Shown one piece after another: positions 752-28,187 of a stretch of 29,685 bases of DNA (within the stretch, counting starts at the first letter, position 1; each line of letters opens with the position of its first letter). The translations under genes were made by a program, and so were the position numbers. Location: IMG/VR virus record IMGVR_UViG_3300028364_000109, positions 1 through 29,685 of that record; one strand, written 5' to 3'. This stretch comes from a virus. A model generated the notes under the pieces. It searched no databases, was not told the DNA's origin, and saw only the letters and a list, made by a program, of their open reading frames with translations.

Positions 752-2815
752 TTATAATACCACACTTTTTCCATTTTCCTTGACAACTGTGATCCCATCT
801 GTAATCATTTCTTTGGCAATTGGATTATGGTCAACAATTATGATTTTTTTGTTAGTGTCTATCTGCTTAAGAACTTCCAAACACTGAGAAATGTTAATAT
901 CCTCAAGACCGTTAAAGGGTTCATCTAAAATAAAGAAATCAGCACCCTTACCAGCCTTAGACTCTATCATATCTATAACAGCTAAATCTACAGCTAGGTC
1001 AATCGCAGTCCTTTCTCCACCCGATAGAGTTTTGATATTAACCTTATCGTAACCACACATATTTACAATAGCATTAACTTCATCCTTGATTGTTCCAGAC
1101 TTGTTTTCCTTACACCCTTCAAAGTAGATAGTTGTATTCATCATATTAGGTATGTCTGATAAGATTTCGGTAGCGTAAGACCCGATATAATCCAGTGTAT
1201 CTTGGAATACCTGCAAGGTGTACGATTTAAGTACTCTTTTGGATTCTTCTGCTACTGAGAGTTTATAGTTGCTATCTTTAAGATTGTCGTTATCTGCAGT
1301 TAGAGAAGATTGCATTTCTTTTATCTTAACTTCAAAGTTAGACACTCTTTCTTTATATGAATTTAGAGAGTTTTGATAGTTGCTCATTTGGCTTTGAATA
1401 TTTTTTAACTCACTTTCTTTTGAACTTAGATTACTTTTAATATCTGTGGCGTTTTTATTATAACTACCCTCTATTACATTTAGCTTGGCAGTATAGTCAC
1501 TTAGTTTTTTAAGATACTTATTTTCAATATCTGAATTTTTACTTATCTTAGAAGCATTGATTTCAACTATGGATTGGTTGATTTCGTTTACTTTTTTGTT
1601 AATTTCCTCTACTTTGTCCTTAACATCAAATGAACTATGTGCTTCATCTATAGCTTGTAACTTACTTTCCAACAAAGGTTTCTTATCTATAAATTCCTTT
1701 AATGCTAGTATAGATACCTTAGAATCTTCAATCTTACTAGTTAACTCTTGTATTTTGGCTACAGCACCTTCATCACTCCACTGTTGGAGACAGGTAGGGC
1801 AATTACTTTCTTCTAAATGTTTCTTTTGCTCTACAGTCTTATTGATCCCCGTAACTAGTATATTTATACTTTGTTCGTGATGAGGTATTGAGTTTAACTC
1901 TTTATTTGTCTCATTTCTAGCAACTTCCAATTTAGAGATGTTTTCTGACGATACTCTTACGATCTCAGCTATTTCAGCCTTATGGTCTGCTATTTGATTT
2001 ACTAATTTAGAAACCTCTTCCTCATCTTCTGCATTGGATATAGGTTGCGGCTCTACAGGTTTTTCAATAGATATTTTTGCCAATTCTTCGGCTTTTTTTA
2101 AATCGTTGTTTTTAGAGTCTTCTGCTAATGTTTTGATTTCTTTTTCGAGAATACCGACCTTACTAGCGTCAAAGTCAACTACAGGTTCTTTTTCAAATTC
2201 CCTAAGTTGCTTAACGTCTTCTAGAGATTTTTCCTTAAGCTCAATTGCCTGTATAAGCTCTTGAATCTTAGACTTGATATCTTTAATATCAAGATCAATT
2301 TTGTAGGACTTTTTAATGGTCTCTTCTAAACCCAAAGCTGTCATTAAAAACTCATAAGATTCTTTACCAGTTAGGTTAAGAAAAAAACCACCTTCTTTTT
2401 GTTTCTTATGAATCATCTTTTTAAATAACTTCTTAGGAATACCAATAATTTCCCACAACCTCTCTTCAGCTAATTTTACGTTTCCACTTACAACTTCATC
2501 ACCATACTTAATAGTAAGACCGTTTTTCTTACATCTTCTGATAGTTAAAGGTACTTGGTTAGCTATATACTCACCTTCAACGTACATAGACTCTTTTGTA
2601 AGTCTAGATTGCATTGCTGTAGCAGGTATATCGTTAATACCAAACAGGTAGTCTTGAGCATGAAAGATACTAGACTTAGCAGCACCCGACCCACCACCTG
2701 TATCGTTATTTTGACCGTTGACTTGTATTAATTTGTCAAAATGAGTAAAATCAACAGTCTGCTCTTCTACAAATGTAGCTATATTGTTAAACGTTAAACT
2801 TTTAATTGATAACAT
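752..2815 (-). CDS. SbcC/Rad50-like recombination ATPase (T4 gp46-like)
   Basis: This 687-residue protein has the SMC/Rad50 plan: N-terminal ATP-binding half, long coiled coil, zinc hook, second coiled coil and C-terminal ATPase half. Visible motifs are a P-loop around residues 40-48, the hook CPTC at 339-342, the ABC signature LSGGE at 597-601, Walker B FFILDEP at 627-633 and the H-loop His663. With the SbcD-like nuclease at 5103-6107 it should form the end-processing complex used in phage recombination and recombination-dependent replication. It is cotranscribed with the zinc-ribbon gene; the start overlaps that gene's stop as TAATG. Odd point: the P-loop reads GSGAAKSS, with Ala where Gly normally precedes the Lys. 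Confidence 0.92.
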   Translation of the reverse strand: MLSIKSLTFNNIATFVEEQTVDFTHFDKLIQVNGQNNDTGGGSGAAKSSIFHAQDYLFGINDIPATAMQSRLTKESMYVEGEYIANQVPLTIRRCKKNGLTIKYGDEVVSGNVKLAEERLWEIIGIPKKLFKKMIHKKQKEGGFFLNLTGKESYEFLMTALGLEETIKKSYKIDLDIKDIKSKIQELIQAIELKEKSLEDVKQLREFEKEPVVDFDASKVGILEKEIKTLAEDSKNNDLKKAEELAKISIEKPVEPQPISNAEDEEEVSKLVNQIADHKAEIAEIVRVSSENISKLEVARNETNKELNSIPHHEQSINILVTGINKTVEQKKHLEESNCPTCLQQWSDEGAVAKIQELTSKIEDSKVSILALKEFIDKKPLLESKLQAIDEAHSSFDVKDKVEEINKKVNEINQSIVEINASKISKNSDIENKYLKKLSDYTAKLNVIEGSYNKNATDIKSNLSSKESELKNIQSQMSNYQNSLNSYKERVSNFEVKIKEMQSSLTADNDNLKDSNYKLSVAEESKRVLKSYTLQVFQDTLDYIGSYATEILSDIPNMMNTTIYFEGCKENKSGTIKDEVNAIVNMCGYDKVNIKTLSGGERTAIDLAVDLAVIDMIESKAGKGADFFILDEPFNGLEDINISQCLEVLKQIDTNKKIIIVDHNPIAKEMITDGITVVKENGKSVVL
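754..764 (-). promoter_or_regulatory. Class I extended -10 promoter for gene 377-736
   Basis: On the minus strand the sequence reads TGTGG-TATTAT, an extended -10 of TRTGN type, about 18 nt before the start codon. It overlaps the last codons of the SbcC gene. A second reading as TATAAT is possible 3 nt downstream. No convincing -35 box. Confidence 0.6.
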
Positions 2816-3066
2816 TAGTCTTCTTCCCCTCTACTTTTCTTTCTGGTTTTTTCTACCACCGCATCCATTACTTCAACTCTTCTGGCTTGAATTCCGTTAT
2901 CTATGAATTGTGTACTTTTAGAGGTTGGTGCTCCAAGAGTCCTTTCCAGCTTACCTGTACCACAAGCTCCACAATCGAGAAAAGACGAAATATCCTTTGC
3001 TTCTTTGAAGAATTTTTTTATTTCGTTGTCACAGTCTGGGTTGTTACATACAAACTTAATAATCAT
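2815..3066 (-). CDS. Small four-Cys zinc-ribbon protein (FmdB-like)
   Basis: This 83-residue protein carries two Cys pairs, C7/C12 and C32/C35 (CNNPDC and CGAC), spaced as in a zinc ribbon of the FmdB/regulatory type, followed by a charged, probably disordered tail ending in KKSRGEED. It is the first gene of a two-gene unit with SbcC, with TAATG overlap at the junction. A ribosome site (AGGAG) lies 6-10 nt before the ATG, and an extended -10 promoter lies further upstream. The zinc ribbon suggests nucleic-acid or protein binding; a precise role is not known. Confidence 0.8.
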   Translation of the reverse strand: MIIKFVCNNPDCDNEIKKFFKEAKDISSFLDCGACGTGKLERTLGAPTSKSTQFIDNGIQARRVEVMDAVVEKTRKKSRGEED

Positions 3067-3085
3067 AAAGATCTCCTGATTTACT

Positions 3086-3096
3086 ATTATACCACA
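3086..3096 (-). promoter_or_regulatory. Class I extended -10 promoter for zinc ribbon-SbcC unit
   Basis: Minus strand reads GCAATTGTGG-TATAAT, a perfect TATAAT with TRTGN extension, 20 nt before the ATG and directly after the terminator of the upstream gene. No -35 box, since that position falls in the terminator stem. Confidence 0.75.
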
Positions 3097-3100
3097 ATTG

Positions 3101-3130
3101 CCAAAAAAAGCCCCAATTAAGGGGCTTTTT
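3101..3130 (-). terminator. Rho-independent terminator after ClpP-like gene
   Basis: A perfect 10-bp stem (AAAAAGCCCC / GGGGCTTTTT) with a 6-nt loop, followed on the minus strand by a run of T. It lies about 20 nt after the stop of the 3150-4061 gene and runs straight into the next promoter. Confidence 0.88.
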
Positions 3131-3149
3131 AAAAGTAATTATTCACTGT

Positions 3150-4061
3150 CTAGTAAGAGTACTCAATATGATCTTTTAAATCTCTATTAATGATGTTTTT
3201 TTGTTTTTCCATCGCTTCTTGTAAGATACCTAAATTTAATTTTTTATCATAAGCACATAGTTCATTTGAATTATCTTCACAACTAGCTCCAAACTTACCG
3301 TTAGACTCTAAGAATTTTTGAAGATCCATATATCCCTTGTTTGTTAGTAACTCAGCACTCATAGAAAGAGGAGCAGTTAAGATTGGACATCCAGATAGCT
3401 TTACTTTAATTTTAAAAAACATAACGTTAATTACACTATCTCTTGTTTTTGAAGCTAAGTCACTCGAACAAGATACCGTGGCAATTTCATCAGCGTAACC
3501 TTTTTCCACAGCCTCAGGACCATTTAACCATAACTCATTGTCATAAGCAGATCTGTAAGATTGTAGACTTTGTTTTCCATTAGTTCTTTTTACAGTAGTT
3601 TTGTCTAGCATGTCGATTCTCTTCAACCACATTCCATATCTAGAATCAAGTTGAGACAGTCCACCTCCAAATTCACCCTTAAAGCCACCTCTAGCCTTGT
3701 GAGACATGAGAACACCGTACTTAATAATATAACGCTTACCGAGGTTTTGAACTGTTTGAAAGCCCATAGATGCTGCGAACAAGGTAACTGTATGTACTGG
3801 TCTATTTAGTCCGTTTACGAACTCATACAACTCCAAACCTGCTTGTACAGATCCACCTGGCGTGTTTAGTACTAAATAAATAGGATATCCACTTTTCAAA
3901 TTGGCATCTAACTTAAGTAGATCTTGTTTTAAGGTAGAAATAGATGAAGAACTAAAAGAAGTACTTAAACTTACTGTATTGTCTGACGTTAATTTAATTT
4001 CTTTTGCACTGATTGTCAGACTCATCATCAGTACCAAAAGCATTCCTAAAAGTTTTTTCAT
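3150..4061 (-). CDS. Exported ClpP-like serine protease
   Basis: This 303-residue protein opens with a Sec-type signal peptide (MKKLLGMLLVLMMSLTISA, cleavage likely near residue 19) and then a ClpP/S14-type fold. The oxyanion segment NTPGGSV (66-72), nucleophile Ser98 in AASMG, His121 in MSHKARGG and Asp174 in a stretch ending WLNGPEAVEKGYADE match the ClpP triad order and context. A C-terminal extension beyond about residue 200 with several Cys has no counterpart in ClpP. It stands alone between its own promoter and a terminator. Normal ClpP is cytosolic and works with an AAA unfoldase; export predicts a different, envelope-located role. Role in the phage is unknown. Confidence 0.8.
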   Translation of the reverse strand: MKKLLGMLLVLMMSLTISAKEIKLTSDNTVSLSTSFSSSSISTLKQDLLKLDANLKSGYPIYLVLNTPGGSVQAGLELYEFVNGLNRPVHTVTLFAASMGFQTVQNLGKRYIIKYGVLMSHKARGGFKGEFGGGLSQLDSRYGMWLKRIDMLDKTTVKRTNGKQSLQSYRSAYDNELWLNGPEAVEKGYADEIATVSCSSDLASKTRDSVINVMFFKIKVKLSGCPILTAPLSMSAELLTNKGYMDLQKFLESNGKFGASCEDNSNELCAYDKKLNLGILQEAMEKQKNIINRDLKDHIEYSY

Positions 4062-4096
4062 TTCTTCTCCTGTGAAGATTGGTTGTTTAGGACTAA

Positions 4097-4107
4097 ATTA
4101 TAACACA
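4097..4107 (-). promoter_or_regulatory. Class I extended -10 promoter for ClpP-like gene
   Basis: Minus strand reads TTGTGT-TATAAT, 35 nt before the ATG, with an AGGAG ribosome site between. Same layout as the other class I sites. Confidence 0.7.
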
Positions 4108-4142
4108 ATGTGTAAGAAAGTATGTATTTATTTCACATATTT

Positions 4143-4781
4143 TTATTTTTTACGTGATCTCGATAGGATAGCTAGATTTTTAAGAGCCTCAGAAGCTTCG
4201 TTTTCACTTACTTCACCATCTTCATCCTCTATAGAGTCTAACACATCACTTGTATTTTGAGTGTAAGCTGTAGCCTTAGGTACTCCAGAATTCGGCTCTT
4301 CTGGGTTTTTAGGGTTGATTATTTTATCTATAGAGTCCATCACTTTGTAATACTGAGATAGCATTTTAGTATCTATTTCTTCAATAATACTGTCATCTTT
4401 GTTTTTTAAGTATTTGTTAAATTTTCCACCGTAATACTTGTTCAAAGCACTTACCATAGTGGTCATAGTGTCTAGTGCCTCTAGCTTTGAAGCCATACAT
4501 TTAGCAACAACAGCATCGCTCATATCTGAATAGTGAGCCATTCTCTTTTCGTGCCACGCACACTTTTCACTAAAATACAGAATAACATCTCTTTTTGAGT
4601 TTGTTAGTGTAGCGATTTCCAAATAGGTCTTTCCAGACATATACAGTTCAAACCACTGAAAAGCGTCTGATTCACTAGTCTTTAGTAAACTAGGACATCC
4701 GTTTGACTTATAGTTGTCTAAAGATTCTCTTTCTTCTTGACTAAAATCAAACGATGTATGATTTAACTGTTTATTTTCCAT
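4143..4781 (-). CDS. HTH protein, possibly terminase small subunit-like
   Basis: This 212-residue protein has, at about residues 48-83, a segment (ELYMSGKTYLEIATL, then KRDVILYFSEKCAWHEKR) that looks like a homeodomain-type helix-turn-helix followed by the Trp/Arg pattern often seen in phage small terminase subunits. The rest is helical with an acidic C-terminal tail ending in RSRKK. It overlaps the preceding gene by 19 nt, so it belongs to the SbcD operon. Location is 10 kb from the large terminase, which weakens the terminase idea. Alternative: a phage DNA-binding regulator. The HTH call is by eye. Confidence 0.55.
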   Translation of the reverse strand: MENKQLNHTSFDFSQEERESLDNYKSNGCPSLLKTSESDAFQWFELYMSGKTYLEIATLTNSKRDVILYFSEKCAWHEKRMAHYSDMSDAVVAKCMASKLEALDTMTTMVSALNKYYGGKFNKYLKNKDDSIIEEIDTKMLSQYYKVMDSIDKIINPKNPEEPNSGVPKATAYTQNTSDVLDSIEDEDGEVSENEASEALKNLAILSRSRKK

Positions 4782-5116
4782 TTTTTACCATCTATTTTCA
4801 TCTCTACTTTAGTTTCAGACCAAAAAAGAAACTTAACACAAGCAACTATCTGATCAATACCTTTAGATACCTTTTCCATATCTAATTCACTATCCTCTTT
4901 AAAGCCGATGTCGTAGATAACTTTACCTGCAAAGAAATCTTTAGTCTTATTTTTTCTAAAGAAATTCCAAGAGACCTTGATCGTATCAACATCGTCTAAG
5001 AAGATAAATGCCCAAGATTTTAAGTTTTCCTGTTGGAATTGGGATATGTTTTTAGACACTTGGAGCATATTTCTATGATCTGTTACAACATCTTGTTCTT
5101 TTTTAATTAGATCCAC
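4763..5116 (-). CDS. Unknown 117-aa protein in SbcD operon
   Basis: This 117-residue protein starts at a GTG (M-D-L-I-K-K) that lies 14 nt inside the end of the SbcD gene, with GGAG 9 nt upstream. Its other end overlaps the HTH gene. The middle and C-terminal parts alternate hydrophobic and charged residues as in a small alpha/beta domain (VKFLFWSETKVEMKIDGKKW). I do not recognise a family. The tight overlaps on both sides argue that it is a real, translationally coupled gene. Confidence 0.7.
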   Translation of the reverse strand: MDLIKKEQDVVTDHRNMLQVSKNISQFQQENLKSWAFIFLDDVDTIKVSWNFFRKNKTKDFFAGKVIYDIGFKEDSELDMEKVSKGIDQIVACVKFLFWSETKVEMKIDGKKWKINS

Positions 5117-6107
5117 TTACATTCTCCAGATAACTAACAACGTCTTTTGTCTCTACACCATCTATCAAACTAAACATTTCACCTCTAAGATAGTCGTATA
5201 TACTGATGTTATCAAATTTGTCAATCTTACCTATTTTTCTATCTGTAGGTCTAGCTTTGATTTGAGCTTTATTTTTATACTTCTTTTTCATCTTGGTGAT
5301 CCAAGCTGATTTACCTACCAATTCAATGTAGTTCTTAGCATTTTCAAAAAGCTCAGCTTCCTTTTCACCCTCAATCATAGTGTGCTTATAGATAGGAGTA
5401 AGTACTTTAGAAGTAGAAATAAATTCTTTAGAAGCTACAGATCTATCTTCATTATGGGTATAAATCCAAATTCCCTTGTCTTTATTGGCATCGCTCATAT
5501 TATCCCATTTGGCAGTGCCTGGGTAATCACATTTTCCAATTTGTTGGTTGGCATGAATGTGACCGCTAATAATTGCATCTTGTGCTACCAAAGATGGGTC
5601 TATTCCATCTTCAGCATAAAAGCCGTTGTCATATTGAGCACCTGTAAACGTCTGGTGTGCTACTAATAACTTTGTAGCTCCTTGGCTGTACAGATCTTGA
5701 GAAGCCTTTAAAAACTCCTCTTTGTTGCTCATGTACGGTATGTATGCGATTCCATCTACTATCGTAGGTTCGTTTAGAATCATCCTCATACAATCAGCAG
5801 TACCGTCATCTTTAAATATATTAAGAGCATTCATAACCTGCTCTTTCTCTCTAGAGCCAGGTTGATCATGATTACCAACTAAAACCCTACACTCCAGACC
5901 AGCTAACTCTATTTTTTCAAAAGCCTTCTGCCAAAAATCTACAATCTCAACTCTCATCACAGCGTGTGTATGGAATAGATCCCCAAGAAATTCTATAGTG
6001 TTTATTTTTCTATCCAAAGCAGTCGCTACAACAAAGTCTATTAACTTCTCAGACTCTTTTAGGTTTGAAATCATAACGTGTGGATCACCGATCCTTAATA
6101 TATTCAT
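5103..6107 (-). CDS. SbcD/Mre11-like nuclease (T4 gp47-like)
   Basis: This 334-residue protein shows the five calcineurin-type metal-binding motifs in order: GDPH (D8, H10), GDLFH (D43), GNHD (N79, H80), AHQ (H151) and GHIH (H183, H185). Length and order fit the phage gp47/SbcD nuclease, partner of the SbcC-like ATPase encoded at 752-2815. Together they should resect DNA ends. The ATG has an AAGGAG ribosome site, and an extended -10 promoter lies inside the end of the preceding gene. In many phages the two subunits are adjacent; here four genes separate them. Confidence 0.92.
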   Translation of the reverse strand: MNILRIGDPHVMISNLKESEKLIDFVVATALDRKINTIEFLGDLFHTHAVMRVEIVDFWQKAFEKIELAGLECRVLVGNHDQPGSREKEQVMNALNIFKDDGTADCMRMILNEPTIVDGIAYIPYMSNKEEFLKASQDLYSQGATKLLVAHQTFTGAQYDNGFYAEDGIDPSLVAQDAIISGHIHANQQIGKCDYPGTAKWDNMSDANKDKGIWIYTHNEDRSVASKEFISTSKVLTPIYKHTMIEGEKEAELFENAKNYIELVGKSAWITKMKKKYKNKAQIKARPTDRKIGKIDKFDNISIYDYLRGEMFSLIDGVETKDVVSYLENVSGSN

Positions 6108-6110
6108 TTA

Positions 6111-6407
6111 CTACTCCTTAACAAAAGACACATGTCCAAAATTAATTATAACACAAGATTCCTTCATGTCCTCACAAATTAGTGGAATTGAGTACTGAGG
6201 AGTTGTATGTAGTATTTCTTCTTTAATGTAGACTACAGAGCCTTTCTTAATAGATAGGTCTTTGGTTATATACGCATCTCTCAACACTTTAAGACCTATT
6301 AATGCAGTTTTTTGGGAGATTGTAGCCATTCCACCCTGTATTTTCTTTCTAATTCCACCTTCTTTCACATAAGGCTCACAAATAACGTTGTTGTTGTACG
6401 AAATCAC
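6111..6407 (-). CDS. Possible GroES-like co-chaperonin
   Basis: This 98-residue protein has the size and outline of GroES. Seen: a short N-terminal strand NNVICEPY like the GroES DRVIV strand, a glycine-containing loop KIQGGMATI at the place of the mobile loop, a strand pair around KKGSVVYIKEE resembling the GroES VGDIVIF segment, and a final strand CVIINFGHVSFV. Similarity is by pattern only. It starts at GTG, overlapping the sigma-factor stop as GTGA, with AAGGAG 8 nt upstream. A phage GroEL-like protein is encoded at 17498-19264, so a matching lid is plausible. Alternative: an unrelated small beta-barrel. Confidence 0.5.
   Translation of the reverse strand: MISYNNNVICEPYVKEGGIRKKIQGGMATISQKTALIGLKVLRDAYITKDLSIKKGSVVYIKEEILHTTPQYSIPLICEDMKESCVIINFGHVSFVKE
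6145..6155 (-). promoter_or_regulatory. Class I extended -10 promoter for SbcD operon
   Basis: Minus strand reads CTTGTGT-TATAAT, inside the last codons of the GroES-like gene, 38 nt before the SbcD ATG. It would allow the SbcD operon to be transcribed independently of the sigma-factor transcript. Confidence 0.65.
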
Positions 6408-7450
6408 AATTCCACTCCTTTTAGTCTAATAACTTTTCTTTCTATAACTTCTAAACTAGTACATGCGTTTGTTACATGTTCCATAGCATCTTTTTTTTCA
6501 ACTATATCTTCAACCATATCTGGGTGAGGTGTGTAGTCATAAATGCCAACACCCTCTTCGTCTTCACCCTCTTCACTTAACTTACTATCTACACTAATGT
6601 AGTTAGATCCGTTCATTAGTGTAGTAATTTGTATTTCTGTAATTGGTAGTTTTGGGATTCTTTTACCTTTCTCTTTATCTTCTAAAAAACTTTCGTTAAC
6701 TGCATCTGTAAGGTCTTTAATGTTATCAATCTTCATCCTGTGTCTCAGGGCATTTGCTCTATAAAGTATCTTTTTTTCTTTAGGGTATAGATTAATGAAG
6801 GATTTTGAGTATTCTTCTATCATAAAGCCAACCATTCTACCTATACTAACAGAAGCCCATACCTTCCTGTAATCACCAGTATACTTATCAACGCCAGCTA
6901 TAAGACCACAAACACATATGTCTATTAAGTCTAGTAATCCTAAATGTGATTTTGGCGTTTTACTGTAAAATATTTTAGCTCTATTGATAGCTAAGGGTAG
7001 GTTGTTTTCAATTAATATATTTCTAGTTTCTAGTATTTCTGTATAGTATCTTTGAGATCTTTCTGGTAAATCTCCTTCCCAGTTATCCGATATATACTTA
7101 ATAAGTTGGTAGTTAATGTCGAACTTCATTAGAGCTTGAGGATCTTTGGCTCTTATAGCTGGAGAGATGTTGGAACTAAAATTCTTAGAACTTTCTCTAA
7201 AATAAGATTGAGATTTTAAAATATTGCCTAGACCATCTTCCTTATCGTTTATGAAACTTATAAAATTTCTATAGACCCTAACTGCTTGACTGTACTTAGA
7301 TATGTCGTTTCTAAACTTTCTCTCTAAATTTACTAGTTTTTCTACTTGGGCTTGCTGGTCTCCTATGAGTCCTTCGTTATCCTCAATAATGTATTTGATA
7401 TTCTCAGCTAATTTCTGAAAATGTCTATCGTTGATTTTTTTTCTAGCCAT
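6404..7450 (-). CDS. Phage sigma-70-like factor lacking region 4.2
   Basis: This 348-residue protein has sigma-70 features: a region 2 at about 145-235 (NNLPLAINRAKIFY, then LLDLIDICVCGLIAGVDKY) and a region 3 and linker at about 236-320 (ITEIQITTLM, then an acidic stretch and DYTPHPDMVEDIV). The protein stops at LEVIERKVIRLKGVEL, where region 4.1 begins in RpoD-type factors; the -35-reading helix-turn-helix is absent. Residues 1-140 are an unrelated N-terminal extension. It probably directs host RNA polymerase to phage promoters. An extended -10 lies 7 nt before the ATG, with no ribosome site. It could be the late factor, in the manner of T4 gp55, but that is inference. Confidence 0.82.
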   Translation of the reverse strand: MARKKINDRHFQKLAENIKYIIEDNEGLIGDQQAQVEKLVNLERKFRNDISKYSQAVRVYRNFISFINDKEDGLGNILKSQSYFRESSKNFSSNISPAIRAKDPQALMKFDINYQLIKYISDNWEGDLPERSQRYYTEILETRNILIENNLPLAINRAKIFYSKTPKSHLGLLDLIDICVCGLIAGVDKYTGDYRKVWASVSIGRMVGFMIEEYSKSFINLYPKEKKILYRANALRHRMKIDNIKDLTDAVNESFLEDKEKGKRIPKLPITEIQITTLMNGSNYISVDSKLSEEGEDEEGVGIYDYTPHPDMVEDIVEKKDAMEHVTNACTSLEVIERKVIRLKGVEL

Positions 7451-7457
7451 TAGTTAA

Positions 7458-7468
7458 TATATACCACA
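7458..7468 (-). promoter_or_regulatory. Class I extended -10 promoter for sigma gene
   Basis: Minus strand reads TGTGG-TATATA followed by 7 nt and then the ATG of the sigma gene. The start of transcription would fall at or one base before the start codon, predicting a leaderless mRNA. Confidence 0.65.
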
Positions 7469-8962: not shown

Positions 8963-8973
8963 TATATACCACA
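8963..8973 (-). promoter_or_regulatory. Class I extended -10 promoter for UvsW-like helicase
   Basis: Minus strand reads TTTGTGG-TATATA, then 6 nt, then the GTG start codon. Transcription should start at the G of GTG. It abuts a divergent class II promoter at 8979-8995. Confidence 0.7.
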
Positions 8974-8978
8974 AATAG

Positions 8979-8995
8979 CAATCTATAAAGTATGG
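8979..8995 (+). promoter_or_regulatory. Class II (putative late) promoter for endolysin
   Basis: Reads CAATCTATAAAGTATGG. A 20-nt block AAATAGCAATCTATAAAGTA at 8973-8992 is identical to one at 24713-24732 upstream of the prohead protease. It resembles the T4-type late box TATAAATA in form. The annotated ATG (8992) overlaps it. Confidence 0.6.
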
Positions 8996-10715: not shown

Positions 10716-10737
10716 ATTATAACAGATTATAATCACA
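10716..10737 (-). promoter_or_regulatory. Tandem class I promoters for second helicase
   Basis: Two -10 boxes on the minus strand: a distal TGTGAT-TATAAT (10726-10737) and a proximal TGT-TATAAT (10716-10724). The proximal one is 6 nt before the ATG, predicting a leaderless mRNA; the distal one would give a leader of about 10 nt. Confidence 0.6.
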
Positions 10738-10749
10738 ATGCAAGCTTTT

Positions 10750-15001: not shown

Positions 15002-15019
15002 TATATACCATAAAGATTG
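15002..15019 (-). promoter_or_regulatory. Combined class I/class II promoter for portal operon
   Basis: Minus strand reads AGCAATCTTTATGG-TATATA. It fits the class II box (CAATCTTTATGGTATAT, 15003-15019) and at the same time the extended -10 of class I (TATGG-TATATA, 15002-15012). Located 22 nt before the ATG of 14036-14980. Confidence 0.6.
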
Positions 15020-19296: not shown

Positions 19297-19307
19297 CATA
19301 TACCACA
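19297..19307 (-). promoter_or_regulatory. Class I extended -10 promoter for GroEL-TerL operon
   Basis: Minus strand reads TTTTTTTTGTGG-TATATG, 32 nt before the GroEL start, with a ribosome site GGAGAAAATATG. No proper -35 spacing. Confidence 0.65.
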
Positions 19308-21284: not shown

Positions 21285-21295
21285 AATATATCACA
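21285..21295 (-). promoter_or_regulatory. Class I extended -10 promoter for AAA operon
   Basis: Minus strand reads TTTTGTGA-TATATT, 27 nt before the ATG, with an AGGAG ribosome site. Confidence 0.6.
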
Positions 21296-21315
21296 AAAAA
21301 TCAAAAAGTAAACAA

Positions 21316-21564
21316 CTAATCCACACAACCACTGTCAAAGTTGTTATAATTGTGAAAATTATCACTTTCTTTGTTGATACCTATCTTAAGGTCTACACTC
21401 GAAATACCATCATCCCCATAAATATATGTCTCATCAGCATGGATTAAGTAATTTTTACCATTTGCTTTCCATCTCTTGTAGCCTTTGATTTTTATCTTTT
21501 TTGTTGAAGCGTTAATGTAGGAATCAACATCCATACTGTTTCTGCGACTATTGATATTTGACAT
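21316..21564 (-). CDS. Unknown 82-aa protein
   Basis: Starts MSNINSRRNSMDVDSYIN and contains a basic middle (KKIKIKGYKRWKANGKNYLIH) followed by an acidic, Asn-rich end. It may be a small beta domain of SH3 or KOW type, but that is a guess from strand alternation. The ATG follows the stop of the 21567-21965 gene by 2 nt, with TAGG upstream, so the two form one unit. No recognised family. Confidence 0.65.
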   Translation of the reverse strand: MSNINSRRNSMDVDSYINASTKKIKIKGYKRWKANGKNYLIHADETYIYGDDGISSVDLKIGINKESDNFHNYNNFDSGCVD

Positions 21565-21566
21565 AA

Positions 21567-21965: not shown

Positions 21966-21970
21966 ACTCT

Positions 21971-21981
21971 ATTATACCACA
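21971..21981 (-). promoter_or_regulatory. Class I extended -10 promoter, leaderless type
   Basis: Minus strand reads TTTTGTGG-TATAAT followed by AGAGT and ATG. Transcription would start at the ATG. The T-rich segment before TGTGG is also the T-run of the capsid terminator. Confidence 0.72.
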
Positions 21982-22010
21982 AAAAAAAAGCCCTTCCGAA
22001 GAAGGGCTTT
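21981..22010 (-). terminator. Rho-independent terminator after capsid gene
   Basis: Perfect 10-bp stem AAAGCCCTTC / GAAGGGCTTT closed on the minus strand by a C(TTCG)G tetraloop and followed by nine T. It ends the capsid operon. Confidence 0.93.
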
Positions 22011-22032
22011 AATAAAACTTGTAATCTAAAGA

Positions 22033-23415
22033 TTAAAGTTGTCCAGAAATATTCTCTAAAAGAACATTCTTTCTTGGTTGCTTAACAGCAAGACATAAGA
22101 ATCTGAAGTGAGCTTCAGGAAGACTTAAGTCATTGATAGCAAGCTTTAACTTACTATAAGCAGACAATTGGTGAAGACCCATTGTGTTTGACTGTAAAAG
22201 GAAACCAGTTACAGAACCAGGCTCTCTATTTCCAAGGTCAACAAAAAGAGTAGTAGCAGCACCGCTATCTTTAACTCTACCAACAAACTTTGCAGTTGAG
22301 GCAGATCCACCAGCTTCTGATCTATACACGTTGTGAAATTTAGATCCAACTGAAGGAGTGATAGTGATAGTAGTAGCTTCACCGTCAGCAACAACCTGAG
22401 CAACATCAGTTGACTTAACAGACTCGCCTCTTTCTGTTACAGAAGTTACATAGTAACTATAAGTACCAGCTTCTAGAGATGAAGCACCGTTTGAACCTGA
22501 AGCACCAGAGATAGCCGGAGCACTTGGAGAACCAGCTCTTGCTCTTGCAGGTCTAGTCTTTCCAGACAAGAATCTTGAAGCTTCCATAGAAACTAAAGCA
22601 GAAGATGTCCATTGTGTTCTTAGGTTTGCACCTGAAGCGTCTTGTGGAGATCCAGCAAGCATAATTCTCTCTTTTGCGTGAGCAATCTTATTATACTGAC
22701 TCAAAGAAATTGGGTCTAGTAAAAGCTTGTCAGCAGAACCATGTTGCATTGCTGATTTAACAGCAGCATCTTCAATAAAAGACTGAGTAAGAGTACCGTT
22801 TACAGATACGATTACAGACTGATCAGAACCATATTCAGCGAACATTAAATCCTGAGTATTTGAGATAGCGTCTGACTCTCTAATTTGAGTATCAACTCCT
22901 CTCATGTTAGGGATTGCAGCAGAAGCAATTGGATTACCATCAAATACACCAGCATTTGAGAAATCTGAAGCTCCACGGAACGAATCAAATTCGATATCCC
23001 CAGCTAATTTCATTGCAGCATCATCAGAAGCTCTAGACTCGGCTTGTTTACCGTCAAAAGCACCAATCATGTTAGCAGCAACAGTTACACGTCTAACTGT
23101 AGAGTAGTATGCCATAGGCACGATAGCTCTAGCGTAGTTAGATGTATCTTCTTCACCAATTCCACCTTCTAACTGGGCAGAACCTCCGAAAACACCGTAA
23201 TCTAGCTGTCTGTTGAATTGAATCAAAGTTGACTTAGCATCTTCAACCTTCAACATTTTTTGTAATTTGATGTGTGAATCATCAAATGTTACATTCTCCA
23301 TTACAGGTGATAGATCTTCTACCTGTAATGCCGAACCTTGGACTAGTGACTCTGGAGCAGCGTTGTATTGACCTGCTTCTAGAGCTTTCATCAAATCGTT
23401 TAACTTATCTGACAT
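22033..23415 (-). CDS. Major capsid protein with Ig/Fn3-like inserted domain
   Basis: This 460-residue protein is the best capsid candidate. It has a strong ribosome site (AGGAGAATAAAATG), lies next to a scaffold-like gene and before a strong terminator, and its N-terminal part (ending TVRRVTVAANMIGAF) and C-terminal part (LPEAHFRFLCLAVKQPRKNVLLEN) look like the HK97-fold capsid proteins of large phages. Residues about 296-400 form a separate Ser/Ala/Gly/Thr-rich beta domain containing GTYSYYVTSVTERGES and FHNVYRSEAGG, typical of an Fn3/Ig-like surface domain. Order in the operon: small virion gene, scaffold, capsid. N-terminal residues may be removed on maturation. Confidence 0.8.
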   Translation of the reverse strand: MSDKLNDLMKALEAGQYNAAPESLVQGSALQVEDLSPVMENVTFDDSHIKLQKMLKVEDAKSTLIQFNRQLDYGVFGGSAQLEGGIGEEDTSNYARAIVPMAYYSTVRRVTVAANMIGAFDGKQAESRASDDAAMKLAGDIEFDSFRGASDFSNAGVFDGNPIASAAIPNMRGVDTQIRESDAISNTQDLMFAEYGSDQSVIVSVNGTLTQSFIEDAAVKSAMQHGSADKLLLDPISLSQYNKIAHAKERIMLAGSPQDASGANLRTQWTSSALVSMEASRFLSGKTRPARARAGSPSAPAISGASGSNGASSLEAGTYSYYVTSVTERGESVKSTDVAQVVADGEATTITITPSVGSKFHNVYRSEAGGSASTAKFVGRVKDSGAATTLFVDLGNREPGSVTGFLLQSNTMGLHQLSAYSKLKLAINDLSLPEAHFRFLCLAVKQPRKNVLLENISGQL

Positions 23416-23424
23416 TTTATTCTC

Positions 23425-24144
23425 CTATAATAGATGTTTAATTGCGTCTAGATCAATTTCTTTATGGCAATATTGTGTAACTTTCTGTCTGTCTTCACTC
23501 TTAGCGATTTTTCCATTTCTCATGTTTTGTACTAAAACATTGTTAATTTCTTTTCTGCTAAGTTTTGAATAGTCAACTTCATCAGCCTTAATTTCTGTAA
23601 CTTCTTCTTCAGATTTTTTTAATACCTGAACGTTACCGATCTTAGTAACAGCCTTACGAGCAGGTGCTCTTTTGACCATTTTTGTAACTACTTCTGTTAA
23701 CATTTCAAAATTCTTCTTAAGCTCTTCTTTTTCTTGCTCAGACTTGGCTAACTTATCGTTAATCGTATCTCTTTCAGACTTAAGTAGAGTTTTTTCTTCA
23801 TCTTCAACGATAACTTCTTTAGTTACAACTTCAGACTTTTTCAAGTTTTCACTTGGAGCTTCTTCTTCAGTAAAAAGAGTAGACTTAATTGAATTATAAT
23901 GAGCTTCTTTTTCAGACTTGTTCATAGATGCGTACATCTTGTTCATTTCTGTAATATCACTCTCATCATACTCGTACTCTACTTCTTCTGACTTAGCCAA
24001 AGAAACTTCTTCATTAGCATTAGCTTCAGGAGTTTCAATAGAAACCTCTTCATCAATACTTTGCTCAGCTTTAGCTAGGTGTTGTTTGAATTCTACTTCA
24101 ACCTCACTAATAAGCTTTGCCATGTCTTTTTCATTAAAATTCAT
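23425..24144 (-). CDS. Putative capsid scaffolding protein
   Basis: This 239-residue protein is acidic and mainly helical, with a coiled-coil centre (about 118-155) and a basic patch (VKRAPARKAVTK) near 157-168. It lies directly upstream of the capsid gene with a 9-nt gap, the normal place for a scaffold. A short motif, Leu/Ile-x-Lys-Ser/Ala-Glu, occurs seven times (residues 23-27, 49-53, 101-105, 120-124, 132-136, 175-179, 213-217). The prohead protease is encoded divergently at 24763. A ribosome site AAAGGAG precedes the ATG. Scaffold role is inferred from position and composition. Confidence 0.7.
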   Translation of the reverse strand: MNFNEKDMAKLISEVEVEFKQHLAKAEQSIDEEVSIETPEANANEEVSLAKSEEVEYEYDESDITEMNKMYASMNKSEKEAHYNSIKSTLFTEEEAPSENLKKSEVVTKEVIVEDEEKTLLKSERDTINDKLAKSEQEKEELKKNFEMLTEVVTKMVKRAPARKAVTKIGNVQVLKKSEEEVTEIKADEVDYSKLSRKEINNVLVQNMRNGKIAKSEDRQKVTQYCHKEIDLDAIKHLL

Positions 24145-24171
24145 GGTTACTCCTTTAATTAGTAGTTAAAA

Positions 24172-24564
24172 TTAAATTCCCTTTGTCTTCATTCTATCGC
24201 TATACTCAATAGACTCACCATCACTAGCTTCTGCAAGTGCAAGGTCTGTTGGGTGTGTTTTAATGATCATCTTCATTCCGATCTTTCCGATCTCGATCAT
24301 GATCTTAGCTGATACTAGTGCATCGACTGCATCTGCTCTTGACGAGTAAGATAGTCTATGAGGTGTGTAAGCATCAAGGTCATTTCCAAAAACATCTTTA
24401 GACACTGCACTTTCTTGTTCAATAAAAATTGAAGCTTCGTCAGTGTTAAGAACTAGTTTAGGATACCCATTAACTTTTTCCTCTGATACAGTAAAGCCAC
24501 GTCTCTCAAGCTTATCTTTAAGCTCTCTTACGTGTGCCTCAGCTACGGCTGTAGATTTTGCCAT
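24172..24564 (-). CDS. Small protein heading the capsid operon
   Basis: A 130-residue protein starting MAKSTAVAEAHVRELKDKLE. An ATG four codons upstream (24574-24576) is less likely because its codons contain the GGAGG ribosome site that serves the ATG at 24562-24564. An N-terminal helix is followed by a short beta part (FTVSEEKVNGYPKLVLN) and two more helical segments with a hydrophobic stretch AKIMIEIGKIGMKMII. No signature known to me. First gene of the operon with scaffold and capsid, so probably a late head protein or assembly factor. Confidence 0.7.
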   Translation of the reverse strand: MAKSTAVAEAHVRELKDKLERRGFTVSEEKVNGYPKLVLNTDEASIFIEQESAVSKDVFGNDLDAYTPHRLSYSSRADAVDALVSAKIMIEIGKIGMKMIIKTHPTDLALAEASDGESIEYSDRMKTKGI

Positions 24565-24595
24565 AATTTCCTCCATATATTGGTGTTAATAGTTA

Positions 24596-24611
24596 CCAGT
24601 GAAATTACTGG
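24596..24611 (-). other. Small hairpin in capsid operon 5' leader
   Basis: CCAGT-GAAATT-ACTGG, a 5-bp stem between the class II promoter at 24613-24629 and the ribosome site of the first gene. Might stabilise the mRNA. Stem is short. Confidence 0.35.
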
Positions 24612-24612
24612 C

Positions 24613-24629
24613 ATATAAGTTATAAATTA
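24613..24629 (-). promoter_or_regulatory. Class II (putative late) promoter for capsid operon
   Basis: Minus strand reads TAATTTATAACTTATAT, close to TAATCTATAACCTAATA at 26568 and CAATCTTTAACCTATAT at 28194. Located about 50 nt before the start of the first gene. Confidence 0.5.
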
Positions 24630-24631
24630 CC

Positions 24632-24657
24632 GTTTTTACTAGCTTTTAAGTAAAAAC
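24632..24657. repeat. 9-bp inverted repeat between divergent late operons
   Basis: GTTTTTACT and AGTAAAAAC form a perfect inverted repeat with an 8-nt spacer. It lies in the 198-bp gene-free space (24565-24762) between the capsid operon and the prohead protease gene. It could be an operator or a hairpin. The rest of this space holds the two class II promoters and no gene. Confidence 0.5.
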
Positions 24658-24718
24658 AAGTACTTAAAGGCGTTTTGTCTCCCAACCTATTATTTTCAAT
24701 AAAAAACAGTGTAAATAG

Positions 24719-24735
24719 CAATCTATAAAGTACCT
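24719..24735 (+). promoter_or_regulatory. Class II (putative late) promoter for prohead protease operon
   Basis: Reads CAATCTATAAAGTACCT and shares a 20-nt identical block with the endolysin promoter. The box sits inside an inverted repeat TAGCAAT (24716-24722) / ATTGCTA (24736-24742). Lies about 28 nt before the ATG. Confidence 0.6.
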
Positions 24736-24762
24736 ATTGCTATCAACTAAAACTGGCTAAAT

Positions 24763-26166
24763 ATGACTAGAAAACACGGAACATTTATACACGGTATTGC
24801 AGCTTCTCAACATATAGATTCGAGTGGTGAGAGAATTATCATTTCTGGAGTGGATGTAAGTTCACTAACTCTTGACGGTGTGTTTAACTTTGAACATGAA
24901 AGTAAGCAAGCTTCTCAAATTGTAGGTAAAATACTAGAGGCTAAAAAAATACTAACTAAAGACGATTGTGAAAACAAACATCACAAGTTTTTTTGGGATA
25001 AAGTAAAGATGCCCTTTATTTATGTAATGGGTGAACTATTTGACAGTGTTAACCATATAGGAGCTAACGATGTAGCTGCAATGGCTAGATACGATAAGAA
25101 TGTAGACGATACTAAAACAAAAAAGCTAATTAATTTTTCAATTGAGGGTTCTAGATTAGGTAAAGAAGGTTCAAATATTACCAACTGTATAGCTAGAAAG
25201 GTAACTGTTACCCTAACTCCCTGTAATAAGATGGCTCAAGCTGAACAATTAGATAACCCATCAAAAGAAGTTAAAGAAAAAAGCACATTTGATATTAAAG
25301 AGATACTAGGTAAATTTAAGAAAAGTGAAGAAATTGAGGTTGAATTTTTTAAATCTGAAGATGTACATAATTACCAAACTAACAGTAAAACCAGAAATAT
25401 TAATAGAAAAAAGAACGTCAATCAAAAGAAAATTATAGATAGAAAAAAGAACGTCAACCAAAAGAAAAGAGTTAACCAGAGAAGTAGTAAGGATTTTTTT
25501 ACATCAAATGTAAGGAAAGCTATCACGGCATCTTGTGGTTTAGGTGCTCCAAGTAGTATGGTTGGTGGTGCTGCATTGCAGAAAGAGCATATACTCAAAT
25601 ACCTTGCTGAAGATTCTTGGCAAAGGTTTGAAAAGAAAGACGATATTATAAGGATAATTCAAGAAAAATCTCCATCTATGAGTAAGACTGAAGTTGAAGC
25701 TGTAGCTAAAACTTTTTCTTATATGCAAGAAAAAAAGAAGGAAATGTCTTTGGAAAAGGCATTGGTAGATAGGGGAATGAGTAGACAGAAAAAAGTACAA
25801 GCTAGAGCCGAAAGAGCTGACAACTTCAAACCTAAAACCAAAGAAAAATTCACAGCTGACGGACTTAGAACTATGCCTAAACCCAAAGCACCTGCCGGAT
25901 CTGAGCCTAAATTGTCTACAGACCACGGTAATAGACCTAAAAGAGGTAGATTAGGATTGATTCAAGGTGGGAAGAAAGATTCTAGTGATCAGACCGAGAC
26001 AGATATAATGCCAAATCTTGCAGCATCAGAAGATGATAGGTGTTGGGATGGCTACAAACCTGCTAAAGGCAAAAAAGCTTACAGTAAGGGTTCTTGTGTT
26101 AAAAAGTCTAAAAAAATCTTAAAGAAAAAATCAGAAGACGAAGATACTGAAAAAGGTGTCTGTTAA
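24763..26166 (+). CDS. Prohead protease with long basic C-terminal extension
   Basis: Residues 1-165 of this 467-residue protein look like a phage prohead serine protease (herpesvirus-protease fold): FIHGIAASQHIDSSGERII, FNFEHES with candidate His45, VMGELFD, and LINFSIEGSRL with candidate nucleophile Ser126. The remaining 300 residues are basic and low in complexity, with a 12-residue tandem repeat (RKKNVNQKKIID-like) at about 215-238 and a C-terminal RCWDGYKPAKGKKAYSKGSC motif also seen at the ends of other phage virion proteins. KSE sites occur at 187-189, 197-199 and near the end. It should process scaffold and capsid. No clear ribosome site precedes the ATG. Confidence 0.75.
   Translation: MTRKHGTFIHGIAASQHIDSSGERIIISGVDVSSLTLDGVFNFEHESKQASQIVGKILEAKKILTKDDCENKHHKFFWDKVKMPFIYVMGELFDSVNHIGANDVAAMARYDKNVDDTKTKKLINFSIEGSRLGKEGSNITNCIARKVTVTLTPCNKMAQAEQLDNPSKEVKEKSTFDIKEILGKFKKSEEIEVEFFKSEDVHNYQTNSKTRNINRKKNVNQKKIIDRKKNVNQKKRVNQRSSKDFFTSNVRKAITASCGLGAPSSMVGGAALQKEHILKYLAEDSWQRFEKKDDIIRIIQEKSPSMSKTEVEAVAKTFSYMQEKKKEMSLEKALVDRGMSRQKKVQARAERADNFKPKTKEKFTADGLRTMPKPKAPAGSEPKLSTDHGNRPKRGRLGLIQGGKKDSSDQTETDIMPNLAASEDDRCWDGYKPAKGKKAYSKGSCVKKSKKILKKKSEDEDTEKGVC
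25405..25476 (+). repeat. Two 36-bp tandem repeats in prohead protease gene
   Basis: Two adjacent 36-bp units starting AGAAAAAAGAACGTCAA, differing mainly at their ends, code for RKKNVNQKK plus three variable residues. Confidence 0.85.
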
Positions 26167-26561
26167 TGGCAAAAGAAAGAACTAAAAGAGTTGCTGTTTG
26201 TCTAGTAAAAGATTGGCAAGACAATGTACTTATGGGCAAGAGAAACGATAACGATCTATGGACAAACCCAGGCGGTCACCTAGATAAGGGAGAGTGTCCC
26301 TATGTCGGTGCTATTAGAGAGTTAAAAGAAGAAACAGGACTAGACGCTACAGATACTAAATTAGTTAAAGTCGGAAAAGACGGTGATATGATGATTTACG
26401 TTTTTGAAGTTACTGTAGATCCTGAACAAAAAGTTGATGTATCTAAAGATCCAGATAAAGAGTGTGATGATTGGGAATACAAAGACCCTAACGAAGTTAA
26501 GGATAAACTTCACGTATCGATAGAAAAAAATATGTTGTTAAAATATTGGATAGATTGTTAA
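26166..26561 (+). CDS. Nudix hydrolase
   Basis: This 131-residue protein contains a complete Nudix box from G37 to L59: G, five residues, E43, seven residues, then RELKEETGL. It hydrolyses a nucleoside diphosphate linked to another group; candidates are oxidised dNTPs, ADP-ribose, or NAD- or 5'-capped RNA, and the sequence does not decide. The ATG overlaps the prohead protease stop as TAATG, so it is translated with a late head gene. No terminator follows before the next promoter. Confidence 0.92.
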   Translation: MAKERTKRVAVCLVKDWQDNVLMGKRNDNDLWTNPGGHLDKGECPYVGAIRELKEETGLDATDTKLVKVGKDGDMMIYVFEVTVDPEQKVDVSKDPDKECDDWEYKDPNEVKDKLHVSIEKNMLLKYWIDC

Positions 26562-26567
26562 TAACAA

Positions 26568-26584
26568 TAATCTATAACCTAATA
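26568..26584 (+). promoter_or_regulatory. Class II (putative late) promoter for gene 26630
   Basis: Reads TAATCTATAACCTAATA, matching the class II consensus, about 45 nt before the ATG. Confidence 0.5.
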
Positions 26585-26586
26585 GT

Positions 26587-26613
26587 ACGCATAAGCGTTA
26601 CAGAATAATCTGT
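26587..26613 (+). other. Two small tandem hairpins in 5' leader
   Basis: ACGC-ATAA-GCGT (26587-26598) and ACAGA-ATAA-TCTGT (26600-26613): two short stems with the same four-base loop, just upstream of the ribosome site of gene 26630. They may protect the mRNA 5' end. Confidence 0.4.
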
Positions 26614-26629
26614 TCTATAGGAGAATAAA

Positions 26630-27388
26630 ATGATTAGTAAAAGTGAAGAGGTAATCTTAACAGTTGCTCTTTCAAACGAAAGAATTGCAAGTGAGATTGT
26701 GGCTAGAGTAATTGACACTGCACCAGCCGATGCAGCTGCAGCACAAGCTATTTTAGACATCATCAAACCATCTAAAAAAGAATCAAAAGAAATTGAAGAG
26801 TATTTAGTAGTAGCCCTAACTAGTCGTAAGTACGGTAAGGAAATTGCAGGTCAATTAGAAGTTATAGTTGAATGTCTAAAGCATCAAGTTGATGCAAATG
26901 ACGTAGCATTAGCTGTAGCTCAATCTAAACTATCACCACTTAGTAAAGAAGCTACAGAGTATCTAGTAGTTGCTTGTGCTAACAGAAGTGTTGCAAAAAG
27001 TATATCTGACAAGATAAATGTAGCGATAACGTCAGCATCTAGTATTTCAACATCACCATCAGCAGCTACTTTTTCAGGTACAATGACTATTACAAGTTTT
27101 GCTGATTTAAGTGCGGATTCAGTTTCAGTTGATGGTGGGACTTACTTAGAAGGTATACAGTGGTTTGCTGCTACAACTAACGATGCTACGGCAAACTCAC
27201 TTGCTTCAGCAATTCAAGCTGGAGTACAAGGTGTTACAGCCTTAGCCGTAGGTCCAGTCATTACAATTACCGCAAATGCAACAGAGGTCAACCCAGGTGA
27301 TGCTTTTGGTGCAGTAACAATGGTGTATAACGATGCTGCTGGTGGAGTGGGTATGACAGTATCTGGACCAACTTTAACTGCAGACTAA
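26630..27388 (+). CDS. Virion-type protein with triple helical repeat and beta domain
   Basis: The N-terminal part of this 252-residue protein contains three copies of a helical module: residues 4-27 (KSEEVILTVALSNERIASEI), 52-79 (SKEIEEYLVVALTSRKYGKE) and 105-133 (SKEATEYLVVACANRSVAKS). The C-terminal 110 residues are a Gly/Thr/Ala-rich beta domain with FAATTNDATANSLASAI, a pattern common in phage tail and decoration proteins. The leader TATAGGAGAATAAAATG is like that of the capsid gene, suggesting a high translation level. A KSE site lies at residues 4-6. Probably a structural protein; exact place unknown. Confidence 0.75.
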   Translation: MISKSEEVILTVALSNERIASEIVARVIDTAPADAAAAQAILDIIKPSKKESKEIEEYLVVALTSRKYGKEIAGQLEVIVECLKHQVDANDVALAVAQSKLSPLSKEATEYLVVACANRSVAKSISDKINVAITSASSISTSPSAATFSGTMTITSFADLSADSVSVDGGTYLEGIQWFAATTNDATANSLASAIQAGVQGVTALAVGPVITITANATEVNPGDAFGAVTMVYNDAAGGVGMTVSGPTLTAD

Positions 27389-27408
27389 AAAACAAATGAG
27401 GAGTAAAA

Positions 27409-27549
27409 ATGAAAAAATCAGATAAAATGAGAAAATTAGCCTCTTTACCAGTCAAAAAAACTGAAAAGAAAAAAGAAGTTAAAAAAGAAGTTAAAAAAGA
27501 AGTTAAAAAAGAAGTTAAAAAAGAAGTTAAAAAAGAAAAGAAGAAATAA
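27409..27549 (+). CDS. 46-aa Lys-rich peptide with five KKEV repeats
   Basis: A short gene with ATG at 27409 and an exact ribosome site (GAGGAG, 6 nt upstream). The 46-residue product begins MKKSDKMRKLASLPVKK and continues with KKEV repeated five times and a Lys tail. The charge is strongly positive overall. It follows the 252-aa virion gene by 20 nt and ends just before a terminator. It could bind DNA or RNA, or decorate the head interior, but nothing fixes this. The good ribosome site, operon position and following terminator support that it is translated. Confidence 0.7.
   Translation: MKKSDKMRKLASLPVKKTEKKKEVKKEVKKEVKKEVKKEVKKEKKK
27469..27528 (+). repeat. Five perfect 12-bp tandem repeats
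   Basis: AAAAAAGAAGTT repeated five times without mismatch, encoding KKEV x5. A sixth, altered unit follows. Confidence 0.95.
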
Positions 27550-27550
27550 C

Positions 27551-27578
27551 AGTAAGCCCTCACATAGAGGGCTTTACT
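27551..27578. terminator. Terminator between convergent genes
   Basis: AGTAAGCCCTC pairs with GAGGGCTTTACT (one bulged base) around a 5-nt loop. It lies between the Lys-rich peptide gene and the convergent kinase-like gene and includes the kinase stop codon. T-runs are weak on both sides, so efficiency is uncertain. Confidence 0.6.
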
Positions 27579-28171
27579 ATTTGGTATTCTTTTTTAATGT
27601 GAGTTAGTATTGAACTGTGAATAGTCATTATACTATCACCCTCATCTATATCTAGAACATTGAAAGATATATTCCAATTAAACGGTAAATTTTGAAAGTT
27701 CTTCAAGGCATCTTTGAGGGTATTTAATTGACTTTTGTTTTCTATTATCTCCAGACTTGTCTTAAATAAATTACTTTTTCTGACCAATCTACTATCACAC
27801 ATGTTTATATCTAATGGGCTTAGTATAAAATTTACGAAATTAAACTTAGAATTCATATCCTCATATATTTGTATAGATTCTTTATACTTTTTATATATTT
27901 GTTCGTAATTCATCATATTAGTGTAATCTTGAGATATGGTTGTAGCTACAGATCCATCTAAAAGAACTACGGTGTCTTGGTTATTTTTAATGTAATTATA
28001 AACGGTTAGGAGTTTTTCTTTCAAATCAGATGCTGAAATTTGTTTTTGGAAGTCAAAGGTTTTGCTATCAATACCCTCTCTTTTCAATAGGTTACGTACC
28101 ATATTTATCTGAGTAGTCTTACCAACACCTACAATCCCGTCAATAGACAATACATTCAGTTTTTTTCTCAT
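27560..28171 (-). CDS. dNMP/thymidylate kinase-like P-loop kinase
   Basis: A 203-residue protein starting MRKKLNVLSIDGIVGVGKTT, with a P-loop at 12-20 in the form typical of thymidylate and deoxynucleoside kinases, then VVLLDGSVATT in the place of the DR-type substrate motif and a later ILSPLDINMCDSRLV like the lid segment. It would phosphorylate a nucleotide for DNA synthesis; the typical DRY motif is not present. A longer frame beginning at GTG 28186 is unlikely since that GTG is part of the promoter box. The ATG at 28171 lies 5 nt after the -10 box with no ribosome site, so it is predicted leaderless. It is a minus-strand island among plus-strand virion genes. Confidence 0.7.
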   Translation of the reverse strand: MRKKLNVLSIDGIVGVGKTTQINMVRNLLKREGIDSKTFDFQKQISASDLKEKLLTVYNYIKNNQDTVVLLDGSVATTISQDYTNMMNYEQIYKKYKESIQIYEDMNSKFNFVNFILSPLDINMCDSRLVRKSNLFKTSLEIIENKSQLNTLKDALKNFQNLPFNWNISFNVLDIDEGDSIMTIHSSILTHIKKEYQIVKPSM

Positions 28172-28176
28172 ACTAG

Positions 28177-28187
28177 ATAATACCACA
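28177..28187 (-). promoter_or_regulatory. Class I extended -10 promoter, leaderless type
   Basis: Minus strand reads TTTTGTGG-TATTAT, then CTAGT, then ATG. It lies 6 bp from the divergent class II promoter at 28194-28210. Confidence 0.68.

Follow-up and report, generated by a model that had tools for sequence, protein, structure and literature searches.

Two −35-less promoter motifs in phages related to Myxococcus phage Mx1: an extended −10 class and a late-gene motif probably read by a truncated phage sigma factor

Introduction

Extended −10 promoters read by bacterial σ70 carry the pattern T-17 R-16 T-15 G-14 together with a −10 hexamer and do not need a −35 element (PMC7403470). Phage T4 gp55 works at −10-only late promoters though it has no sigma domain 4 (PMC2988020). 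Leaderless phage mRNAs are known, for example in φYS40 (PMC3594737), and −10 motifs adjoining open reading frames (ORFs) are common in Deinococcus-Thermus (PMC12340547). The subject here is a repeated promoter motif, termed m1, in IMG/VR virus record IMGVR_UViG_3300028364_000109, positions 1 to 29,685 (the whole stretch analysed, called the window), a 29.7 kilobase (kb) fragment of a tailed phage which also encodes a sigma factor. m1 appears to be a real, conserved promoter class of known type, and the sigma factor, which is truncated, probably reads a second motif, m2. The evidence for two promoter classes is strong, and that for which factor reads which is weaker. The model favoured, in which host σ70 would read m1 and the phage sigma m2, is considered rather likely.

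The window's major capsid protein shares 57% identity with its counterpart in Myxococcus phage Mx1 and about 25% with those of SPO1-group phages. Relatives were 50 contigs with a related groEL among viral contigs; 8 large ones (121 to 177 kb) and the 170 kb Mx1 genome were read throughout. Homologues occur in metagenome-assembled genomes (MAGs) labelled Deltaproteobacteria, Saprospiraceae and Saccharibacteria, from which no firm host follows. Motifs were found by k-mer enrichment and thresholded scans; free expectation-maximisation motif discovery was dropped because it drifted towards start-codon composition.

An extended −10 class without a −35 box

By its sequence m1 (T-R-T-G-R-TATNAT) is a σ70-type extended −10 element. 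It has TG at −15/−14 (TRTG), one base ahead of a −10 hexamer that is TATAAT-like (TATAAT, TATTAT, TATATA or TAATAT). TGTGGTA[TA][TA] is present in 7 copies in the window against 1.06 expected (300 first-order Markov-simulated sequences, maximum 5), and all 7 are at most 50 nucleotides (nt) upstream of a same-strand ORF. For the shorter TGTGGTA, 7 of 8 copies lie at most 45 nt upstream of a same-strand start, a zone that is 2.3% of the sequence (binomial p=3e-11). The possibility that the motif is as common inside genes as in front of them, which was checked, therefore falls away.

The original prediction had grouped eleven minus-strand sites as one class. All eleven are where it placed them, each as the 11-mer that starts at the position named. 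Ten hold together; the one at 15002 belongs with the second, late-gene motif, and a twelfth site on the plus strand is added.

754 to 764, minus strand: m1 TGTGGTATTAT, 18 nt before ATG 736 (orf119)
3086 to 3096, minus strand: m1 TGTGGTATAAT, before orf83-SbcC, with a hairpin (judged by eye) and T-run just upstream
4097 to 4107, minus strand: m1 TGTGTTATAAT, before the ClpP-like gene 3150-4061
6145 to 6155, minus strand: m1 TGTGTTATAAT, inside orf98, before the SbcD-like gene 5103-6107
7458 to 7468, minus strand: m1 TGTGGTATATA, directly before the sigma gene, 8 nt from the −10 end to the ATG (predicted leaderless)
8963 to 8973, minus strand: m1 TGTGGTATATA, 7 nt before the GTG of a UvsW-like helicase (predicted leaderless)
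15002 to 15012, minus strand: site of the original prediction, TATGGTATATA, overlapping m2 and not conserved at orthologues
19297 to 19307, minus strand: m1 TGTGGTATATG, before groEL-orf183-terL
21285 to 21295, minus strand: m1 TGTGATATATT, before the AAA ATPase gene
21971 to 21981, minus strand: m1 TGTGGTATAAT, 6 nt before the ATG of orf132 (predicted leaderless)
28177 to 28187, minus strand: m1 TGTGGTATTAT, 6 nt before ATG 28171 of a thymidylate-kinase-like gene (predicted leaderless; gene start taken as ATG 28171, a longer GTG ORF being set aside)
29478 to 29488, plus strand: m1 TATGATATAAT, the twelfth site, before an ORF that starts at 29499 and runs off the window

Exact TGTGG does occur at seven of the original sites, but TTTGTGG proper, proposed as the shared form, at only four of those seven. 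The genes behind the sites are, as had been said, mostly those of DNA metabolism, the sigma factor, chaperonin and ATPase. The orthologue of the ClpP-like gene is also preceded by m1 in the relatives G003, G013 and G002.

Unseeded 7-mer enrichment upstream of ORFs recovers m1 in G002, G003, G004, G008, G013 and G014, as TGTGGTA or TGGTATA in closer genomes; the more distant have TGATATA or GATATTA. Of 38 distinct relatives, 32 have the m1 core upstream of groEL, as against 8.9% of control windows (p ~5e-28, relatedness not corrected). The conservation was originally held to go beyond TRTGN; it does so to the extent that the T's just upstream are kept and position −13 is R (the close clade has G, the distant clade A), but no further.

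Across 68 m1 sites, drawn from the window and from three close relatives, information is confined to TRTGGTAWAAT, a pair of T's that precede it and the region around the start, and is near zero at −45 to −3 relative to m1. Since the sites are flat upstream beyond the two T's, a −35 box is lacking. At 21971 an intrinsic terminator (stem 22010-21987) ends in the T-run that precedes TGTGG and takes up the −35 region. Both observations uphold the proposal of a promoter class lacking a −35 box, and a −35 element would be dispensable at m1. Consensus −35/−10 pairs are no commoner in the window than in shuffles (61 against 54.7, standard deviation 7.6; 38 against 45.2, standard deviation 8.1). Ordinary −35/−10 promoters were accordingly set aside as the explanation for the window, the pairs being neither enriched nor near starts.

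A related possibility, a refinement of the model given above whose confidence overlaps with that of the model, is that m1 is read by host σ70 made −35-blind by a phage protein that displaces region 4, in the manner of gp39 of phage P23-45 or AsiA of T4, so that m1 would be a middle class following canonical early promoters. Promoters with TTGACA and a −10 are enriched in G013 (11 against 1.8 expected) and G001 (6 against 0.7 expected), which points to three temporal classes in these two, m1 being the middle one; those in G013 are mostly before small ORFs at 0.5-12 kb, apart from the m1 genes. Both gp39 and AsiA spare extended −10 promoters (PMC7403470). However, no candidate protein was found; only AsiA was sought by profile, and it gave no match, though the control was likewise silent. 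This refinement is a possibility to which we give somewhat less than even weight.

Separately, the gene helicase2 has TTGCAT-16-TATAAT directly before its ATG (10716-10745, minus strand), and its G003 orthologue has TTGACA and a −10-like hexamer in a similar place. The element is perhaps an ordinary −35/−10 early promoter.

Spacing to the start codon

The distance between the final base of the −10 and the first ATG that opens an ORF, taken for 53 m1 sites, has two peaks. One is at 6-8 nt (14 of the 53 against 1.9 expected), the other at 14-30 nt (25 sites against 8.7 expected), and the 9-13 nt between them is not represented by a single site. The shorter geometry sets the start codon at the expected transcription start, so a leaderless mRNA is predicted. 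About a quarter of the m1 sites, and a few of m2, abut the start codon in this way, and leaderless mRNAs are predicted for them, notably for the sigma gene, whose start-abutting layout is kept in many relatives. The 14-30 nt spacing leaves room for a ribosome-binding site, GGAG, which stands separately downstream of m1 at the leadered sites.

This arrangement bears on whether the motif might instead be a signal for translation, ribosome-binding or otherwise, or just an AT-rich pattern that lies near starts by chance. The sites are near start codons and the genome is 65% A+T. However, the separate GGAG and the missing 9-13 nt spacings do not suit such a signal, and m1 is kept at orthologous sites in relatives of up to ~46% GC and is far above Markov expectation. 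Either explanation is very improbable.

A second motif before virion and lysis genes

The same k-mer scan yielded AATCTT words, refined to an element Y-AATCTWTA (m2), often preceded by A-rich AAT.R. No conserved −35 was seen upstream of m2 in 57 sites. In the window it precedes plus-strand genes and orf314:

8979 to 8987, plus strand: m2 CAATCTATA, 5 nt before ATG 8992 of the endolysin gene
15011 to 15019, minus strand: m2 CAATCTTTA, before orf314-portal
24719 to 24727, plus strand: m2 CAATCTATA, before orf467 (protease-like by position)
26568 to 26576, plus strand: m2-like TAATCTATA, 54 nt before orf252
28194 to 28202, plus strand: m2 CAATCTTTA, before orf142-orf275

Upstream of orf314, AATCTT is found in 9 of 9 orthologues, the window's included, roughly 20-40 nt before the start. 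The site at 15002 is better read as m2 because eight relatives keep only the CAATCTTTA element upstream of the orthologous gene. The m2 at orf142 is also present in Mx1, and in G003 m2 precedes tail, baseplate, portal-operon and endolysin-type genes. Under a strict test m2 is before 15 of 52 late-annotated and 7 of 116 early-annotated genes (p=1.3e-4); the result of a broad early/late Fisher test (p=2e-10) is not relied on, some of its class labels having been assigned by the analyst. The late motif is apparently undescribed: no description of it or of its link to the sigma was met in the literature searched, a search that left most subscription journals outside.

Between the kinase-like gene and orf142, at 28177-28202, m1 (minus strand) and m2 (plus strand) stand back to back, in what looks like a divergent early/late switch point.

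The phage sigma factor

6404 to 7450, minus strand: phage sigma factor, 348 amino acids, regions 1.2-2-3 and the start of 4.1, without 4.2

Of 34 related records 21 have the gene, nearly all of the large ones among them. Homology in region 2 is seen in a profile comparison with RpoD (8.5e-6) and in an hhalign alignment to E. coli RpoD (E 5.8e-5, probability 66%), where only region 2.1-2.2 aligns; the AlphaFold2 (AF2) model (mean predicted local distance difference test, pLDDT, 78) matches the fold of sigma70/sigmaA with Z 11-12. The 21 homologues all terminate in an LKGV-type motif, which aligns with region 4.1. The sequences stop there, and the −35-binding helix-turn-helix 4.2 is therefore absent. 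In domain content the protein is apparently intermediate between ordinary sigmas and T4 gp55. It seems to be a naturally occurring −10-only factor with domain 3 retained, and so bears on how a sigma works without domain 4. By eye, no tryptophan (Trp) dyad equivalent to W433/W434 lies where region 2.3 should be, the alignment being weak and no profile alignment extending there. A search for a second sigma with PF04542 matched the Mx1 sigma only, though that profile misses the other known sigmas as well, so that a second one may still exist.

Any −35-less promoter would suit a sigma that lacks region 4.2, and it could be that the phage sigma reads m1, in positive autoregulation, while m2 is left to a different phage activator or to host polymerase in a modified form. 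In many relatives m1 precedes the sigma gene, down to a 28% identical homologue in L147, and the sigmas of phage 7-11 are transcribed from host as well as their own promoters (PMC4331800). However, Mx1 has the sigma and m2 while having no m1 near any start, and m1 fits the σ70 extended −10 consensus, yet the dyad is not seen in the phage protein. We consider this reading unlikely.

The neighbour of the sigma gene, orf98 (6111-6407, minus strand), is conserved in relatives and has no family match by sequence. By its AF2 model it is similar to GroES/gp31 (best Z 6.1; co-chaperonins make up nearly all of the top structure matches), with a low-confidence stretch where GroES has its mobile loop. 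From this model it is likely a co-chaperonin for the phage GroEL. It had been considered as a separate supplier of region 4, a role set aside on the resemblance to GroES.

Differing versions or pieces of the phage sigma are on L144, L145, L146 and L148, four contigs of one Deltaproteobacteria MAG (bog_1112), so several related phages were probably binned together.

Assignment of factors to motifs

Mx1 is the main reason for giving m1 to the host and m2 to the phage sigma. Near its annotated starts YAATCT[TAC] is found 23 times against 5.8 expected, and 16 of 16 TTGACA/−10 pairs are near starts. The two kinds divide by strand: 20 of 23 m2 are on the plus strand (structural) and 16 of 16 −35/−10 pairs on the minus strand (Fisher 2.6e-8). 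Its sigma has 35% identity to that of the window over the matched segment and 29% over the whole alignment. As Mx1 keeps m2 and the sigma while a host-type promoter replaces m1, m2 would go with the phage sigma and m1 with the host.

In Mx1 (L053-L056) the words GATCAAC, AGATCAAC and TAGATC are also strongly enriched upstream of annotated starts (GATCAAC 17 against 1.7 expected).

The motifs, their placement, conservation and spacing, the lack of a −35 box and the truncation of the sigma are features of the sequences themselves; from them we infer timing, start points and the pairing of factor with motif. The window holds genes for SbcC/SbcD-like proteins, helicases, sigma factor, GroEL, AAA ATPase, terminase, portal, capsid and endolysin, and the phage would be an SPO1-like, Mx1-related myovirus in which ten of the original sites and that at 29478 form one extended −10 class. 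Host RNA polymerase with its housekeeping sigma most likely reads m1, region 3 on TRTG and region 2 on the −10 hexamer. This would express replication, recombination, nucleotide, chaperonin and regulatory genes, the phage sigma among them. The phage sigma, without region 4.2, most likely then directs polymerase to (AAT.R)Y-AATCT-W-TA before virion and lysis genes. The comparisons point to a two-step gene-expression programme common to the whole phage family, the cultured Mx1 included.

Several points weigh against this assignment. The Mx1 argument comes from one lineage only, and the pairing also leans on the missing Trp dyad and on the logic of a cascade. The early/middle character first ascribed to the m1 genes is not a pure one: in G013 and G002 m1 accompanies m2 at some baseplate operons, and under the strict early-versus-late test m1 gives no significant result (p=0.22). 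The operon leading to the major capsid gene (upstream of 24576, minus strand) has neither motif, in the window or in any relative. ORF starts in the uncultured relatives were called mechanically, and among the relatives the host is known for Mx1 alone.

A wider picture, put forward tentatively and with rather less assurance than the assignment itself, is of a phage family with two −35-blind promoter languages, one spoken by host polymerase, perhaps phage-remodelled, on extended −10 sites, and then one by truncated-sigma polymerase on CAATCTTTA; in either language, promoters abutting starts may give leaderless mRNAs. A testable transcription programme is offered for a large group of almost uncharacterised phages, with a cultured member in Mx1 (Myxococcus xanthus DK1050).

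Comparison with known systems

The sigma70/sigmaA extended −10 promoters are like m1 in having TRTG and a hexamer; here the class is phage-wide, R at −13 is conserved, and the promoters often abut the start codon. The middle and late promoters of Thermus phage P23-45, used with gp39, are similarly an extended −10 class that resists −35 blocking (PMC7403470). Its late genes share that class, whereas those of the window phage have a different motif.

The T4 late system of gp55, gp33 and gp45 is alike in its −10-only late promoters and a sigma without domain 4 (PMC2988020). However, the T4 late promoter is an 8-bp TATA box where here it is YAATCTWTA (CAATCTTTA), and the window sigma, unlike gp55, still has domain 3 and the beginning of 4.1. 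A sliding-clamp profile matched in G003 and weakly in G013, in these two relatives only, the T4-type clamp being outside that search.

Phages phiEco32 and 7-11 also have a divergent phage sigma with its own short motif, found by similar comparison (PMC4331800). As a difference from the programme proposed here, they use host promoters early and the phage sigma for middle and late genes. The leaderless genes of phiYS40 (PMC3594737) and the ORF-adjacent −10 motifs of Deinococcus (PMC12340547) share a −10 a few nt before the start codon; here, in a different phage family, an extended −10 and a further motif, for late genes, go with that arrangement.

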